From positions 62,001 through 126,000 of the forward strand of contig NZ_BOON01000017.1 in the NCBI RefSeq assembly GCF_016863255.1: a DNA stretch of 64,000 bases, in the 5' to 3' direction. Source of the stretch: Planosporangium mesophilum. Its GTDB lineage: Bacteria > Actinomycetota > Actinomycetes > Mycobacteriales > Micromonosporaceae. Both the position numbers and the translations under genes were made by a program. The notes beneath the pieces are model-generated. The model made no database searches. It saw nothing but the letters and a program-made list of their open reading frames with translations, and was not told where the DNA came from. Below, one piece after another: positions 22,098 to 32,782 of this stretch (the stretch's first letter is position 1; every line of letters begins with the position of its first letter).

Positions 22098-23498
22098 TCA
22101 GGCGCTCGTGGCCGAGCCCAGGATGCTGACCGCGTTGCCGCTCACGTTGATCGGCGCCTGCACCGACGTCACGATCTGGTTGCCGGTGAGGGCACCGCCG
22201 TTGCCACCGGTGGTCATCGCACCCCCGGCGCCGTTGGCCGACGCGCCGCCGGCCGAAGCACCGGTCGACGAGGCGCCGCCCGCCGAGGCGATCCCCAGGA
22301 TGCTGACCGCGTTGCCGGTCGCGTTGATCGGCGCCTGCACCGACGTCGCAACCTGGTTGCCGGTACCGAGGCCGTTGTTGCCACCGGTGGTCATGTCGCC
22401 CCCGGCAGAACCGTTGGCCGAGGCACCGCCGCGGGCGCTGCTGGCGTGCAGCCCGGCCGCCTCGTTGGTCTTCTTGGCGAAGGCGGCCTTCTTGACGTTG
22501 TGCGTCTTGGCGAGGTGAGCGGACTGCGTCACGTGCTGCACCGCGTTCATGGTGTTGACCGTGCCGGCGCCGGCGCCGTAGGCCGAGCCGCCGGCGCCGC
22601 CACCGGTGTAGCCGCCACCCGCGCTGCCACCCGCGCCACCACCGGTGTAGCCGCCACCCGCGCCGCCGCCGGTGTAGCCACCGCTACCGCCACCGTTGTA
22701 GCCGCCACCGCCGCCACCGTTGCCACCGCCGTCACCGGCGCCGGCGCCACCGGCGCAACTGGCCGAGGCGTCGCCGAGGACCGCGATCGCGTTGCCGCAC
22801 AGGTTGATCGGCGCCTGGATCAGGTTGCCGATCTGGTTCCCCGTGACCGCGCCGCTGTTGGTGCCGGTCGTCATGCCACCGTTGCCGGCCGCCGAACCGC
22901 CGGCCGCCGCGCCACCGGCGCAGGAGGCGTCGGAGACGCCGAGCACGGCGATCGAGTTACCGCAGGCGTTGACCGGGACCTGCACCAGCGAGGACGCCTG
23001 GTTCCCGGTGAGCAGGCCGCCGTTGTTGCCGGTGGCCATCTCGCCGCCGTTGGCCTTCGCCCGGGCGCCGTTGGCCTTCGCGGAAGCCGCGTTGGTGCCG
23101 GCCTTGGCGGCCGAACCACCGGCGGAGGCGGCCGACGAGGACCCGAGCACGCTGACGGCGTTGCCGCTGACGTTGACCGGCGCCTGGATGTTCGTCGCCA
23201 CCTGGTTGCCGTTGCCCAGGCCGCTGTTGTTGGCGGTGGTCATGGCCTCGGTGGCGGCACCGGTCGCGGTCGCGCCGGCCGAACCGCCGCCGCCCTTGGC
23301 CTCACTGAGACCGAGGAAGCCGACGCTGTTGCCGTCCACGGTGACCGGCGCCTGGCCGTTGGTCCCGAGCTGGTTGCCGTCGCCGGCCCCGGTGTTGTTA
23401 CCGGTGACCGTGTCGGCCTGCGCCGCACCGCTGGCGACGAGCAGGAAGCCGGCGGAGAGCACACCGACGTTGAGCGACTTACGAACCCACGTCTTCAT
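22098..23498 (-). CDS. Secreted chaplin-like protein with six chaplin-type repeats
   Basis: A 466-residue exported protein. A signal peptide (residues 1-28, MKTWVRKSLNVGVLSAG then a hydrophobic core ending AAQA) precedes six 23-residue repeats of the form GNQ-x5-QAPVN-x2-GN-x2-x-V/A-LG at 41-63, 97-119, 165-187, 220-242, 380-402 and 439-461. Repeats 3 and 4 carry a Cys within the repeat and another just after it (Cys179/193 and 234/248), as in chaplins. Between repeats 4 and 5 lies a Gly/Tyr-rich stretch (YTGGGAGG units) and a Lys-containing segment. There is no sortase signal. Chaplins assemble into amyloid-like surface layers in Streptomyces; a similar role is inferred. The ATG at 23498 has only a distant AAAGG. 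Confidence 0.82.
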   Translation of the reverse strand: MKTWVRKSLNVGVLSAGFLLVASGAAQADTVTGNNTGAGDGNQLGTNGQAPVTVDGNSVGFLGLSEAKGGGGSAGATATGAATEAMTTANNSGLGNGNQVATNIQAPVNVSGNAVSVLGSSSAASAGGSAAKAGTNAASAKANGARAKANGGEMATGNNGGLLTGNQASSLVQVPVNACGNSIAVLGVSDASCAGGAAAGGSAAGNGGMTTGTNSGAVTGNQIGNLIQAPINLCGNAIAVLGDASASCAGGAGAGDGGGNGGGGGGYNGGGSGGYTGGGAGGGYTGGGAGGSAGGGYTGGGAGGSAYGAGAGTVNTMNAVQHVTQSAHLAKTHNVKKAAFAKKTNEAAGLHASSARGGASANGSAGGDMTTGGNNGLGTGNQVATSVQAPINATGNAVSILGIASAGGASSTGASAGGASANGAGGAMTTGGNGGALTGNQIVTSVQAPINVSGNAVSILGSATSA

Positions 23499-26411: not shown

Positions 26412-27041
26412 TCACCGGTAAGCCTTGCCCACCTCGGCCGACCTGTCACCCTGGAGCGCGGCCAACGTCGCGGCCCGCAACAGGTCCGCCCGGCGCTGCC
26501 GGTCGACCTCGCCGCCGAGGAACGGCGTGGAGTTCATCAGGCCGAAGGCGGCGTGGGCGAGGACCCGCGCCTCGTTCGGCGACAACTCGGGGCGCAGCCC
26601 CGTCAGGGTGCTCACCCACTCCTCGACGTAGAGGCGCTGCAGCCGCCGGATCTGGCGGCGCGACTCGTCCGGCAGCCGGTCCAGTTCGTGCAACTGGAGC
26701 GCGATGACGGCCGGGTTGGCCAGGGCGAAGTCGACGTGGAACTCGACCAGGGCGGCGAGGGCGTCCCCCGGACTGGCCCCGTGCGCACCGGTACGCTCGC
26801 GCCCGCCGGCCAGCAGTTTCTCGCTCACCGGGATCAGTGCCGCGACCAGCATCGCTTCCTTGCCGGCGAAGTGGTGGTAGAGCGCCGGGCCGGTGACACC
26901 GGCGGCCGCGCCGATGTCGTCCATGGAGACGCCGTGGTAGCCGCGGGTGGCGAAGAGCCCGACGGCAATCTCCAGGATCTCGTCCCGGCGTGAGCGGCGC
27001 CGCGCCGGCGTCGCGGGAGCTACCTGCTGATCGGCGGTCAT
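26412..27041 (-). CDS. TetR-family regulator of the leucine catabolic cluster
   Basis: A 209-residue repressor. The TetR helix-turn-helix lies at about residues 18-64 (RDEILEIAVGLFATRGYHGVSMDDIGAAAGVTGPALYHHFAGKEAML region); the C-terminal half is a helical ligand-binding and dimer domain. The ATG at 27041 lacks a ribosome-binding site; TAGGCT ends six bases before it, so the transcript is probably leaderless. An operator (27067-27087) overlaps the expected -35, and the same 16-base core precedes the carboxyltransferase gene. Autoregulation plus control of the cluster is therefore likely; acyl-CoA ligands are usual for such regulators. Confidence 0.9.
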   Translation of the reverse strand: MTADQQVAPATPARRRSRRDEILEIAVGLFATRGYHGVSMDDIGAAAGVTGPALYHHFAGKEAMLVAALIPVSEKLLAGGRERTGAHGASPGDALAALVEFHVDFALANPAVIALQLHELDRLPDESRRQIRRLQRLYVEEWVSTLTGLRPELSPNEARVLAHAAFGLMNSTPFLGGEVDRQRRADLLRAATLAALQGDRSAEVGKAYR

Positions 27042-27066: not shown

Positions 27067-27087
27067 CCTAACTGAACGATCGTTAGG
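27067..27087 (-). promoter_or_regulatory. TetR-type operator before the TetR gene
   Basis: CCTAAC and GTTAGG arms flank TGAACGATC. CTGAACGATCGTTAGG (27072-27087) is identical to the core of the site at 21941-21966. It also overlaps the stop codon of the TPR gene at 27083-27085. Confidence 0.75.
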
Positions 27088-29947
27088 CCTCGTCCAGGCC
27101 GTACTCCTCGCGCAGCGCCGCCGCCTCGGCACCGCGGTCGAGCGCCTCGAGTACCCCGGCCAGCAGCCACGCGGCGTTCTGCCGCACCGGCCAGTCCCGG
27201 GGCGCGGTGCCGAGGACCGCGCGCAGCACAGGCTCCGCCTCGGCCGGCCGGTCACAGCGGAATAGCAGCTCGGCGTGGAGAACGTCGGCCTGCAGCGCCT
27301 CACCGAACGCCCCGATCGACCGGAACCCCGTACCGGAGGCGGCCGCCCGGTCCAGCGCCGCGTCGAACCGCTCGGCGGCGATGAGTACGCGCGCGCCGTC
27401 GAAGGCGAGCATCGCCCGCTCCCAGGTGGCGGCCGGCTCGTCGGTCGGCAACCCCTCCGCCCTGGTTTCGGCGGACTCCAGCGCCGCCACCGCCTCGTCC
27501 AACCGGTCGGCCCAGCGCAGCGCGAGCGCCGCCCAGCGGCGGGCCCGTACCTCGTCCAGGGTCAGGCCGGCGTCCCGGTACCCGTCGGCGGCCGTGCCGA
27601 AGCGGACGGCCGCGGCGGCATCCCGGTCCCGGTGGTACAGGATGTGCCCGGCCTCCTCGTGCATCTGCGACCGGCCGGCCAGGTTGTCGTACCCGTCGAG
27701 GTTCGTCACGAGCTGATCGAGCTGCGCCAAGGCCTCGTCGGGCTGGTCGAGGTCGCGGTAGACGGCCGCCAACAGGTACCGGCACCTGTCGGCGGCGTCC
27801 CGGGCGCCGAGCCGCTCCAGTACGGGCAGCGCCTCCTCGGCGGCCTCCGCCGCGTCCAGCGCCTGGCCACAGCCCTGGTACGCGGCCGCGAGGTCGTACC
27901 GGGCGAACGCCGCGGTGGCCTCGTCACCGGCCGCCGCGAACCCGGCCACCGTCTCGACCAGCGGCTCGACCGCGCGGCGGGGATCGCCGGCGGCCAGCAG
28001 TGCCCGCCCCCGACCGTGCTGGCCGGCCAGGATCACCTCGTCGTCGGTCGAGCGCCCCACCACCGTGCCGAACGTCTCCGCCGCCGCGGCGTACTCGCCG
28101 AGTTCGGCCTGCGCGTGCGCGCGCAGCAGCCAGGCGATCGCGGCGACCGGCGGATCACCGGCCGCGCCGAAGCACTCCAGCGCGGTGGTGGCCGACTCGG
28201 CCGCCTCCGGTACCCGCCCGAGGGTGAGCAGGAACTGGGCCCGGCGCATCGCCACCTCGGCGGCGAGCAGTGCGTCACCGGCGATCGTGGGCGCCTGCCC
28301 GGCGGCCCGCTCCACCGCCGCCAGCCCCTCGGCCGGCCGGTCGCCCAGGCCGAGCACGTACGCCAGGCGCAGCTCGGCGCCGACCCGGCGCTCGACATCA
28401 CCCAGCTCCATCAGCCGGCGGTTGGCCTCCTCGACCATGGCGAGGCCCTCGTCGTACCGGTCGGAGCCGCAGAGCAGCGCGCCCAGGCGGCTCATCGTCA
28501 CCTGCCGGCGGACCTCGTCGCCGACCTGCGCGTACCCGTCCGCCGCCTCCCACCAGGCGCGCTCGGCCTCGGCGTGCCGGTCGGCGGACGCGGCCAGCAT
28601 CCCCCGCCCGTCGGCCCGCCGCGCGGCGACCAGCGGCGACAGCGCGTCGGCCGGGTACCGCTGGTCGAAGTGGCGCCAGACCGCCCCCGCCGCCGCGGTG
28701 CGGTGCTCGCGGAAGAACCGCTCGGCGAGGTCGAGCAGGCCGGCCGGGTCGTCGGGGTAGTCGGCCGGGTCCACCGCCGGAGCGTCCGGCTGGGGCGCCG
28801 GTACCGGCGTCATCCGCCGGCGGCGGCCGTCGACGTCCGACAGCGGCAGGTACTCCACCAGCGGCTCGGCGGCCAGCATCTCCGCCACCCGCTGACCCTG
28901 CCAGCCGGTGCCATTGCGGGCGTCGAAGCGGGCGGCGAGCTCACGGGCCTGGTCCGCCAGCTCGCCGGCGAGCCTGAGTACGGGCACGTCGGCGGCCTCG
29001 CGGCCGGCGGTGGCGGGGCGGTGCACGGTCAGGCCGCCGCGGCCGGATGCCGCGAGCCCGTCGAGGACGCGGGCCGCCGCGGCACTGAACCGCATCGTGG
29101 CCCAGGGCGACGGCGAGCGGTCCAGCCAGCCCAGGTGCCGCTGGACGATCTCCAGCCCGCGCGCGACGTTGCCGGTCCACGCGCAGAACATGAGGTGCTC
29201 GGCGATATATCCCAGGTCCGCCAGGTTGCCCCGCATCAGGCGGTATCCCCGGCGGTGCGCGTCGGCCGCCTCGGCCAGCCGGCCGGTGCGCAGGTAGGGC
29301 AGCAACAGGTCGGTCAGGATGCTCTGCGGCTGCTCGTGGCAGGACAGCTGCCCGGTCAGGAGCGGCGCGGCCAGCGCGACGGCCTCCTCGTCGGTGCCGT
29401 ACTGGATCAGGTGCAGGGCCTTCGCGCCCGGGTCGCAACCGGGGCAGTCGGAGTTCTCGTCCCGGGGCGCGGCGTTCCAGCGCTCGTACCACTCGCGGGC
29501 GCCGTCCGCGTCGCCGACGTGGTACGCGAGCCCCCAGCGCTGCCGGTACACCGCGTGCAGGCTGTGCCCGCCGGCCTGGTAGCGCCGCTGCATGTCGTCG
29601 ACGACCGCGTACGTCCGCTCCAGCGGCACCTCGGGGAACTTCGTCAGCGCGTTGATCACGTACTTGAAGTGCCACAGCAGCAGGCGCTCGTCCTCGCGGC
29701 TGCGGCTGGCCGGGTCCCGGTCGTACTCGGCCAGGCACCAGGAGAACGTCACGAACGCCTTCGCCGGCTCCCCGCCGTAGGTGTAGGCGTTCGTGGCCAT
29801 CATGCGCGCGGCGAATCGCAGCCGGTCGGAGCCGGCGGCGTCGGCGTGCTGGACGACCTGCTCGACCAGGGCGATCTGGCCCGCGCCGTACGGCACGCCA
29901 CGGGCCTCGACCAGCAGGTGCCACAGGTCGTCCTCGGTGTAACCCAT
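27083..29947 (-). CDS. Large TPR-repeat protein paired with an HSP90-family ATPase
   Basis: A 954-residue soluble, almost wholly alpha-helical protein starting MGYTEDDLWHLLVEARG. A first helical part (about 1-390) contains a CPGC pair at 168-171. After a linker containing PVPAPQPDAPAVDPADYPDDP, about 14 TPR-like helical pairs run from about 410 to the end (for example GRVPEAAESATTALECFGAAGD, LDAAEAAEEALPVLERLGA, LAQLDQLVTNLDGYDNLAG). No enzymatic motif or signal peptide was seen. The ATG overlaps the HSP90-family stop by one base (TGATG), so the two are co-translated. TPR proteins are classic HSP90 co-chaperones in eukaryotes; here the C-terminal EEVD anchor is absent from the partner, so the contact would differ. 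Confidence 0.85.
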   Translation of the reverse strand: MGYTEDDLWHLLVEARGVPYGAGQIALVEQVVQHADAAGSDRLRFAARMMATNAYTYGGEPAKAFVTFSWCLAEYDRDPASRSREDERLLLWHFKYVINALTKFPEVPLERTYAVVDDMQRRYQAGGHSLHAVYRQRWGLAYHVGDADGAREWYERWNAAPRDENSDCPGCDPGAKALHLIQYGTDEEAVALAAPLLTGQLSCHEQPQSILTDLLLPYLRTGRLAEAADAHRRGYRLMRGNLADLGYIAEHLMFCAWTGNVARGLEIVQRHLGWLDRSPSPWATMRFSAAAARVLDGLAASGRGGLTVHRPATAGREAADVPVLRLAGELADQARELAARFDARNGTGWQGQRVAEMLAAEPLVEYLPLSDVDGRRRRMTPVPAPQPDAPAVDPADYPDDPAGLLDLAERFFREHRTAAAGAVWRHFDQRYPADALSPLVAARRADGRGMLAASADRHAEAERAWWEAADGYAQVGDEVRRQVTMSRLGALLCGSDRYDEGLAMVEEANRRLMELGDVERRVGAELRLAYVLGLGDRPAEGLAAVERAAGQAPTIAGDALLAAEVAMRRAQFLLTLGRVPEAAESATTALECFGAAGDPPVAAIAWLLRAHAQAELGEYAAAAETFGTVVGRSTDDEVILAGQHGRGRALLAAGDPRRAVEPLVETVAGFAAAGDEATAAFARYDLAAAYQGCGQALDAAEAAEEALPVLERLGARDAADRCRYLLAAVYRDLDQPDEALAQLDQLVTNLDGYDNLAGRSQMHEEAGHILYHRDRDAAAAVRFGTAADGYRDAGLTLDEVRARRWAALALRWADRLDEAVAALESAETRAEGLPTDEPAATWERAMLAFDGARVLIAAERFDAALDRAAASGTGFRSIGAFGEALQADVLHAELLFRCDRPAEAEPVLRAVLGTAPRDWPVRQNAAWLLAGVLEALDRGAEAAALREEYGLDEA

Positions 29948-31722
29948 CAGCGGTCCTTGTCCGGAACGGCCTGGTTGAGCAGGCCGAGGAGCGAACTGTT
30001 CAGCAGCGCCGCGTCGACGGGCCGGATCGGGTGGTACCCGAGCAGCAGCGCCTGCCCGTACAGCGCCTCGACCGCGAGCCTGATCAGCGCGGGGTCGTCG
30101 AGGGCGGTCACCCGGCGCACGATCGGGTTGCGGTAGTTGAGGACGAGCTGCGGCCGGTCGTCGGTGGTCGTGCGCGCCAGCGCGTCGAGCACCCCGGCCC
30201 ACACCTCGTCGACCTGTTCCCGGGTGCTGCGAAGCTGCTCGTTGAAGGCGGCGGCCCGGTTGACCAGGTAGAGGGCGGGCAGGGCGATCGGCTCGTACGC
30301 CCGCAGCACGACCTCGCACCCCAGCCGGTCGACCGCCCGCTGCGCCTCGGTGAGCACCGGCCGCAGTGCCAGCTCGACGTCCCCGTCGAGGACGTCGAAG
30401 CGGGTGGTCAGGTCGCTGGGTTCGAGGCGCTCGATCAGCGCCGAGCGTTCGATGCCCGGCAGCCGTTCGATGATCTCGGTCTCGTACACGTACCCGCCGT
30501 TGACCAGGGGCAGGTCCTGCGCCGCGGCCACCGACGCGAGCTGCCGGAACTCCTCGACCTTGACGGTGTACCGGACCAGGCCGTACCGCTCGCGGAACTC
30601 CGCGAGCGTCATCCGGCCGACGTTGGTCTCCATCGGCCACCACGCGTCGACCAGGCGAAGCATCTCGTCGTCGTGCAGGGCGAGGGCCTTGACCCCGACG
30701 TGGTGGATGGCGAGGAACTCGGCGAGCCGGCCCGGGTGGGTGGCGGCCAGTCCGACCAGCCATCCGCGCAACCGCTCCCCCAGCGCCTCGCGGGTCGCCT
30801 CCAGCAGGCTGTCGGAGTACAGGGCCTCCCGGCTCGCGGTCGGCTTGAGCTCGCTCGTGTCGACCACGCACCGGGCGAAGAACGCCCAGTCGGGCAGCAG
30901 CCCCTCCGCCCCCTCGGAGAGCAGCATCCGCTTGAGGTAGACCCGGTGGCCGGCCCGTGCGGTCGGGTTGGCCGGCTGGGGCAGCACGAACGCGACGCCG
31001 GTCAGACCGGCCTCGGGCACGCTCAGGTCGATCACGTCGAACGGTGTGAAACCGAAGACGCTCCGCGCGTACTCGAAAAGGGCTTCCCGGCGCTCGGGGC
31101 CGGAGGAAGCCCAGGGCAGCCGGTCCTCGGCGGTCCGGACCGGCCCGCTCGGGGTGGCCACGGTGACGTCGATCGGCAGCAGCGAACCGTACAGGCGGGC
31201 CAACTCGACGACGGTCGGGGCGGCGAGCAACGGCTCGGCACCGCGGCGGGGCAGCAGCGTGACCGTGGTGCCGGTCTCCGCCCGGTCCGCCGGCTCGACC
31301 GAGTACCGCCCGTCGGCGTACCCGGTCCAGCGCACCGCGGACGCGCCGGCGGCGCGGGTCTCCACCCGGATCTCGTCGGCGACGAGGAAGCAGGAGAGCA
31401 GGCCGATGCCGAACTGGCCGAGGAACTCGTGGCGGGCGAAGCCGAGATCGTCGCGCTTGGAGCTGCGACCGATCGTGGCGAGCAGCTCGTGGACCTGCGC
31501 CTCGGTCAGCCCGATCCCGGTGTCACTGACCCGCAGCGTCCCGTCGCCGGTGACCTCGGGTGGCTCGATGAGGACGCGGCCGGGCTCACGTGAGTGCCGG
31601 GCCGTGATCGCGTCCGCCGCGTTCTGCAGCAGTTCCCGTACGTACACCCGCGGGCTGCCGTACAGGTGATGGCTGAGCAGGTCGACCACGCCCCGAAGGT
31701 CGACCTGGAAGGTCCGGTCCAC
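29947..31722 (-). CDS. HSP90-family ATPase (HtpG-like, divergent)
   Basis: A 591-residue chaperone ATPase. The GHKL nucleotide pocket is intact: Glu30 and Asn34 in YVRELLQNAADAI, DTGIGL at 67-72 and GQFGIG at 102-107. The middle domain has TASREALYSD, matching the catalytic-Arg loop of HtpG, and a C-terminal dimerisation region follows. It is shorter than canonical HtpG (about 620-640) and diverges strongly outside the motifs, so it belongs to an actinobacterial side branch rather than true htpG. GTG start with GGGAG nine bases upstream. It is the first gene of a two-gene operon with the TPR protein. Clients are unknown. Confidence 0.88.
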   Translation of the reverse strand: MDRTFQVDLRGVVDLLSHHLYGSPRVYVRELLQNAADAITARHSREPGRVLIEPPEVTGDGTLRVSDTGIGLTEAQVHELLATIGRSSKRDDLGFARHEFLGQFGIGLLSCFLVADEIRVETRAAGASAVRWTGYADGRYSVEPADRAETGTTVTLLPRRGAEPLLAAPTVVELARLYGSLLPIDVTVATPSGPVRTAEDRLPWASSGPERREALFEYARSVFGFTPFDVIDLSVPEAGLTGVAFVLPQPANPTARAGHRVYLKRMLLSEGAEGLLPDWAFFARCVVDTSELKPTASREALYSDSLLEATREALGERLRGWLVGLAATHPGRLAEFLAIHHVGVKALALHDDEMLRLVDAWWPMETNVGRMTLAEFRERYGLVRYTVKVEEFRQLASVAAAQDLPLVNGGYVYETEIIERLPGIERSALIERLEPSDLTTRFDVLDGDVELALRPVLTEAQRAVDRLGCEVVLRAYEPIALPALYLVNRAAAFNEQLRSTREQVDEVWAGVLDALARTTTDDRPQLVLNYRNPIVRRVTALDDPALIRLAVEALYGQALLLGYHPIRPVDAALLNSSLLGLLNQAVPDKDR

Positions 31723-31793
31723 GTCTGGCTGCTCCCGATCACACTTGTCGAGCGCTCACCGTACCGGTGCCGGCCCACCGTCGAGGTCCCTTG

Positions 31794-31869
31794 GATCGTG
31801 ACAACTTCGCCGAAGTCGTGGCCTCAGTACCGTGCCGAGGCCACGACTTCGGTGTCAGTTGTGTCGATC
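31794..31869. repeat. 76-base imperfect palindrome
   Basis: Inner arms CCGAAGTCGTGGCCTC (31810-31825) and GAGGCCACGACTTCGG (31837-31852) are perfect complements over 16 bases with an 11-base loop. The outer arms (GATCG and ACAACT blocks, 31794-31806 and 31856-31869) match imperfectly. It sits just past the sulfurtransferase stop and may terminate that gene. Confidence 0.8.
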
Positions 31870-31879
31870 AGGAACGCGA

Positions 31880-32782
31880 TCAGGAACCGAGCTTGCCCGG
31901 CTCGGCGCCCCTGGCGATCGGCGCCCGGACCAGGTTGCCCCACTCCGTCCACGAGCCGTCGTAGTTGCGCACCCGCGGGTACCCGAGCAGGTGCGTCAGC
32001 ACGAACCAGGTGTGCGAGGAGCGCTCACCGATCCTGCAGTACGCGACGATGTCGTCGTCGCTGTTCAGGCCCAGCTCGTCGGCGTAGATGCGCTGCAGCG
32101 CGTCGGCCGGCTTGAACGACCCGTCGTCGTTGGCCGCCTGCTTCCACGGCTTGCTCACCGCGCCCGGGATGTGGCCGCCGCGCAGCGCACCCTCCTGCGG
32201 GTAGTCCGGCATGTGCAGCAGCTCGCCGGTGTACTCGCCGGGTGAGCGCACGTCGACCAGCGGACGACCGGCCGTGACGTGGGTCAGCACCTCGTCGCGG
32301 AACGCCCGGATCGGGGTGTCGTCGCGCTGCACCACCGGGTAGTCGGTGGGGGTGCGCCGCGGCACGTCCCGGACCAGCTGCCGCCCCTCGGCGACCCACT
32401 TCTGCCGGCCGCCGTCGAGGATCCGCACGTCGGCGTGGCCGAACAGGGTGAACACCCACAGCGCGTACGTGGCCCACCAGTTGAAGTTGTCGCCGTAGAA
32501 CACGATCGTGTCGTCGCGGCTGATGCCCTTGGCCCGGCACAGCTCCGCGAACCCCTCGGCGTCGAGGTAGTCGCGGGTGACCTGGTCATTGAGTTCGGTG
32601 TGCCAGTCGACCTTGACAGCGCCCGGGATGTGCCCGGTGTCGTAGAGCAGGACGTCCTCGTCGCTCTCCACCACCACCAGACCCTCGTCATCGAGGTGGT
32701 GCGCCAGCCAGGACGTGGTAACCAGTCGCTCCGGATGCGCGTACGCCTGCAGCTCTGGTGCGGAATCGTTAGGTACGGCCAT
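31880..32782 (-). CDS. Thiosulfate sulfurtransferase (two-domain rhodanese)
   Basis: A 300-residue tandem rhodanese. Domain 1 (about 20-140) is the inactive copy; domain 2 (about 165-290) has [12 protein letters not shown], then the active-site loop [12 protein letters not shown], whose Cys carries the persulfide. The CRxGER loop fits thiosulfate rather than mercaptopyruvate specificity and resembles mycobacterial CysA/SseA proteins. The ATG at 32782 gives the family's usual length. It may supply sulfane sulfur for cofactor synthesis; a SufE protein is encoded 6 kb away, not adjacent. Confidence 0.92.

Follow-up and report, generated by a model that had tools for sequence, protein, structure and literature searches.

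The DNA analysed here (the window; 64 kb of a Planosporangium mesophilum contig) carries on its minus strand a two-gene unit in which an HSP90 gene (29947–31722) lies upstream of a gene for a TPR protein (27083–29947), both of them strong coding calls. The HSP90 gene starts with GTG and encodes 591 amino acids (aa). Its stop codon TGA (29949–29947) shares an A with the ATG (29947–29945) of the TPR gene, a one-base overlap that bears out the TGATG junction described in an initial annotation of this locus. Within the 157 bases 5' of the HSP90 gene, between it and a gene for a rhodanese-family sulfurtransferase, lies an unusually stable and long hairpin (31790–31880, minus strand; −50.5 kcal/mol, z = −7.1) with 18 perfect pairs plus an outer stem and no T-tract, which probably ends transcription of the upstream rhodanese gene or insulates it. 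On the other side a TetR regulator gene (26412–27041, minus strand) follows as a neighbour, 41 nt after the TPR stop codon. Given the hairpin and this spacing, the HSP90 and TPR genes seem to form a separate unit, which the TetR gene possibly trails. Scans for sigma-70 promoters and intrinsic terminators returned none. No HAIR (HspR) or CIRCE (HrcA) element with up to three mismatches occurs anywhere in the 64-kb window, so heat control by HspR or HrcA is not supported and was dropped. The order TetR, pair, biotin carboxylase and HMG-CoA lyase is common to about a dozen loci; we also considered the pair as a component of this downstream TetR/leucine-catabolism cluster and rejected the idea, as the synteny is confined to the window's lineage and the pair has other neighbours elsewhere. 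Elsewhere in the window, positions 22098–23498 (minus strand) encode a 466-aa protein with several chaplin-like (ChpA-C) repeats in a single chain; a typical chaplin is short and has one or two domains.

The AlphaFold2 model of the upstream protein displays a complete HSP90 fold with N-, M- and C-domains (pLDDT 87.9), and its best structure matches are TRAP1 and HtpG, with Z about 30 over the full length. HSP90 ATPases use a Glu for hydrolysis, an Asp for ATP binding, and an Arg and a Gln of the middle domain. The GHKL motifs and the loop named in the initial annotation are all present: E30 and N34, DTGIGL (67–72, with D67, G69 and G71), GQFGIG (102–107) and TASREAL (295–301), the catalytic loop that holds R298. 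In an alignment of 29 relatives from many phyla, E30, N34, D67, R298 and the nucleotide-site glycines are invariant. In the window HSP90, however, a Tyr replaces the Gln that follows the catalytic Arg (Q404 of the human protein), so that the set of ATPase residues is not complete. Canonical HtpG shares the three-domain fold and the nucleotide motifs, but profile scores place the two proteins in different families. The window protein is a member of NF010683 (803.6 bits over residues 2–589, curated cut-off 455) and not of the HtpG family NF003555 (151 bits over the first 378 residues only, cut-off 371). A separate HtpG-type gene lies on another contig of the same genome (C70 of G000). In a tree, the pair-type HSP90s fall apart from this HtpG, whose branch is long and whose exact place is unsure. 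The term 'divergent' thus suits the window protein relative to HtpG, but within its own, already named family the protein is ordinary. This family, an NCBIfam equivalog (NF010683/PRK14083) whose model name carries neither a linked TPR partner nor a function, is a second bacterial HSP90 family. Chen et al. 2006 (PMC1525184) sorted HTPG proteins into three groups (A, B and C) and described a second HTPG, from another group, in both S. coelicolor and B. fragilis; the consulted passages name no linked TPR partner, and no function is assigned. NF010683 probably corresponds to Group C because lengths fit: a Bacteroides copy (L158) has 588 aa, the length stated for B. fragilis HTPG2.

The downstream protein is, as first described, a helical-repeat TPR protein of 954 residues. 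Pfam TPR_12 (PF13424) exceeds its cut-off in this protein and PF13181 does so in a Listeria homologue, and AlphaFold2 yields a confident all-helical model (pLDDT 93.2) with superhelices at residues 1–360 and 395–954 and a disordered linker (361–393) between them. Only the first superhelix, a core of ~350 aa (residues ~8–359; 28871–29926, minus strand), is common to partners from other phyla. Across phyla, W92, K95, C168, C171, C203, R344 and N345 are invariant in a 35-sequence alignment; the core also has an FDxRN motif (FDARNG, 341–346, in the window), and 94% of the 116 HSP90-linked modules have its cysteines (CxxC...C). In the model, C168, C171 and C203 are carried by two superhelix loops, an arrangement consistent with a putative metal or redox site. 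Neither Pfam nor NCBIfam holds a family for the core module beyond generic TPR models. Partners have a median length of 979 aa in Actinomycetota vs. 353 aa in other phyla; the giant size of 954 aa is an actinomycete (lineage-specific) extension of the ~350-aa core. The extension itself (residues 395–954; 27086–28765, minus strand) forms a superhelix similar to those of peptide-binding TPR proteins, LGN/Pins among them (Z 25, rmsd 3.3, 328 residues aligned). The TPR sensors Rap and NprR and LGN share its arrangement (Z 17–25), but identity is 10–18%, the partner has no catalytic or HTH domain, and a common fold is no proof of function. A sister lineage was also observed in which the core module continues into a YbjN domain at the C-terminus and a further, separate gene for YbjN stands before the HSP90 gene (L062:6579-10470; similar L042, L047, L060; L069, L074, L075, L076). 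Several genera of this lineage are without the HSP90 and have the YbjN genes alone left, which suggests that HSP90 was lost repeatedly there.

The two genes are adjacent far beyond the actinobacteria. An HSP90 alignment headed by a Listeria sequence, when scanned against genome contigs, gave 80 loci in nine phyla (assigned from record titles): Bacillota, Planctomycetota, Myxococcota, Acidobacteriota, Desulfobacterota, Bacteroidota, Pseudomonadota, Deinococcota and Actinomycetota, with genera such as Listeria, Paenibacillus, Corallococcus, Bacteroides and Streptomyces. With a core-module profile, the partner was detected directly downstream of HSP90 in 76 of these 80 loci, and one of the four exceptions lies at a contig end. 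The two genes overlap in 50 of the 76 (median gap −1 nt). Within the window's order (a 299-genome sample), the partner lies directly 3' of 53 of 57 HSP90 genes. The remaining four comprise one with a weak homologue adjacent that was found on closer look (G493, L178), one that adjoins another TPR protein (G382), an HSP90-TIR fusion with a helical neighbour (G453) and one with a core-module relative 4 kb away (G007). At the last of these (L066:5598-13709) the divergent HSP90 is flanked by genes for an SRA-HNH nuclease and a BTAD/NB-ARC/TPR regulator. Where the neighbour of an HSP90 escapes the core profile it is still a TPR or helical protein (Pfam TPR at L179, helical by inspection at L180, and the E. 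coli/Salmonella/Pseudomonas branch). A case against linkage is G035 of the first sample, where HSP90 and partner genes are both present but apart, on different contigs. As a control, the core module was sought within about 5 kb of canonical HtpG genes in the same genomes and found at 0 of 20 loci. On this result, together with the profile scores and the separate genomic HtpG, we reject a canonical HtpG with a chance neighbour. The expectation that bacterial HtpG lacks a dedicated TPR partner stands for HtpG proper but fails for the second HSP90 family. In Listeria the genes are, by their order beside fri, lmo0942, lmo0941 and lmo0940, with the partner duplicated; lmo0942 is known to adjoin fri (PMC3534079). 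In Bacteroides and Pedobacter (L158:3601-5967, L166:3507-5993) the gene of a large Sel1-repeat protein lies 2–10 bp upstream of HSP90, a possible third component in these genera.

Coupling extends from gene order to evolution. Trees of 104 pairs are congruent (r = 0.84 vs. a permuted maximum of 0.15), a signal that in part reflects shared species history and includes genomes with two pairs, and 51 strongly supported HSP90 splits show one conflict with the partner tree. Genomes with two copies (G013, G019, G020, G022) hold two pairs, and the co-occurrence odds ratio, not corrected for phylogeny, is 104. Both by gene order and by descent, the NF010683 HSP90 family is therefore coupled to a TPR protein built on the ~350-aa core, and the check on adjacency and co-inheritance that accompanied the initial annotation is passed well outside its intended range. 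That the genes are mere neighbours, co-transcribed for historical reasons and with products that do no joint work, is highly improbable given adjacency across nine phyla despite different surroundings, re-duplication as pairs and the agreement of the trees. No gene fusing HSP90 to the partner was found in 171 HSP90 loci.

Separation of the genes, proposed at the outset as evidence against a pair, turned out to be asymmetric. Nearly every HSP90 gene of this kind has a TPR-like neighbour, but of the 79 genomes of the order that bear the partner, 27 lack this HSP90, so that the partner family has at least one HSP90-independent use. This asymmetry is what one would expect if HSP90 serves the partner, i.e., if the TPR protein is the substrate of a dedicated HSP90 and is itself the adaptor or sensor that does the real work. 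The partner is also the more variable of the two genes. However, its core module is strongly constrained across phyla (invariant cysteines, FDxRN), a better fit to an interface than to a mere substrate, and orphan partners retain the same core motifs in genomes without the HSP90. We regard this explanation as the main rival and as unlikely overall.

We favor, with a probability of slightly under 0.6, the reading that the window genes encode a dedicated bacterial HSP90/TPR co-chaperone pair. Operon conservation across phyla is strong circumstantial evidence for a complex, short of proof; of the self-contained chaperone/co-chaperone pair first put forward, the pairing is backed by adjacency, trees and the HtpG control, and physical binding is a prediction from the genomes. 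In such a pair, the ATPase would operate as a normal HSP90 dimer. Eukaryotic HSP90 and its TPR co-chaperones (Hop, FKBP51/52, CHIP, AIP/AIPL1, and SGT1 in plant immunity) offer the obvious likeness of an HSP90 ATPase paired with a TPR protein, which we take as an analogy in working that need not imply kinship of the partners. In contrast to the eukaryotic system, the bacterial partner is encoded in the same operon and belongs to a TPR family with its own cysteine cluster, and the HSP90 has no EEVD-like tail. A listing of C-terminal tails confirmed the initial observation that EEVD is lacking, in the window protein and in all related HSP90s listed, with no other conserved tail in its place; the eukaryotic docking rule is therefore inapplicable. 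The core module may dock on a surface of HSP90 other than a C-terminal EEVD peptide and, once docked, could tune the HSP90 cycle or present a client, and the invariant CxxC...C cysteines would coordinate a metal, zinc being the likeliest, or act as a redox sensor. Choice of the client or adaptor might fall to the variable C-terminal part of the partner: in the window this is a second TPR superhelix of the peptide-binding type, in the sister lineage a YbjN domain, and outside actinomycetes it is missing.

Because the genes are adjacent in at least nine phyla, our data suggest that bacteria possess an HSP90/TPR-partner machine of their own. To our knowledge, TPR co-chaperones of HSP90 have been considered an innovation of eukaryotes, and bacterial HSP90 has been taken to act without any dedicated to it; a pair kept in so many phyla makes this view directly testable. 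If the co-chaperone reading is true, it would extend the HSP90/TPR co-chaperone kind to bacteria. The pair also offers an entry point to the second, widespread HSP90 of bacteria and a route to bacterial HSP90 clients, with tractable laboratory hosts among its carriers. The HSP90 itself is a known, named family, and the pairing and the core module appear to be undescribed: searches of the open-access PMC literature returned no description of the pair.

Another possibility raised initially was an ATPase-sensor conflict module, in which an invader would be sensed by the TPR protein and HSP90, as a switch of the NLR kind, would set off an effector. Circumstantial support for it comes from a side branch in which the HSP90 continues at its C-terminal end into a TIR-type (CAP12/PCTIR-like) domain (L082:5932-8565, plus strand; L180:4942-7626, minus strand). 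The two fusions, from a cyanobacterial (Pseudanabaena) plasmid and an actinomycete, are 30% identical over their full length, each has a helical or TPR partner nearby, and the fusion matches a TIR effector model of PADLOC at E = 3e-7. Distribution of the pair is moreover patchy outside Streptomyces and the window's family. The window pair, however, has no effector domain, and in PADLOC 2.0 its partner matches nothing and its HSP90 gives partial matches to the GHKL region alone (TmtA and REase_II models), i.e., no defence model was matched beyond the shared ATPase region. Sacsin, with its HSP90-like repeats, and the paraMORC/GHKL conflict proteins share a GHKL/HSP90-like ATPase and weak N-domain profile similarity, but the window HSP90 is full-length and the pair lacks HEPN, nuclease or other effector domains. 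The window genes further sit in conserved chromosomal synteny beside leucine-catabolism genes, and the E. coli side branch (see below) keeps to a single fixed site (fdhD-yiiG) in the two genomes inspected. With its conserved order alongside biotin carboxylase and HMG-CoA lyase and no defence system match, an immune function at the window locus is unlikely, and we consider the conflict-module explanation quite improbable as a whole. A broader scenario, in which an ancient EEVD-independent bacterial HSP90/TPR partnership was armed in some lineages as an immune-type device (HSP90-TIR plus TPR sensor), seems to us only marginally less doubtful; if true, it would be a bacterial parallel to the plant HSP90-SGT1-NLR link, with HSP90 itself as the switch. 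The Pseudanabaena plasmid locus also carries a separate TIR gene, a VWA gene and an AAA gene. A search of 396 genomes from the phylum for further HSP90-TIR fusions (E 1e-60) returned none and, having had no positive control, is uninformative. Phage records yielded no convincing phage-borne pair-type HSP90, the best matches being small unannotated or bacterial-looking records.

A second side branch consists of a separate HSP90-like gene and a gene for a partner of ~770 aa (L187:6001-10144, L184:4980-9127, L185:5881-10122, L186:6971-11194), with hosts that include E. coli, Salmonella Infantis, P. aeruginosa, Xanthomonas and actinomycetes. It occurs in 245 of 5,426 complete E. coli genomes, with both genes present every time. 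The 770-aa partner has invariant cysteines of its own (CPQSxC...CxxC), and kinship to the core module was rejected as not significant (probability 4%), though both proteins carry CxxC motifs. At least two branches thus combine a divergent HSP90 with a helical protein that bears cysteines.
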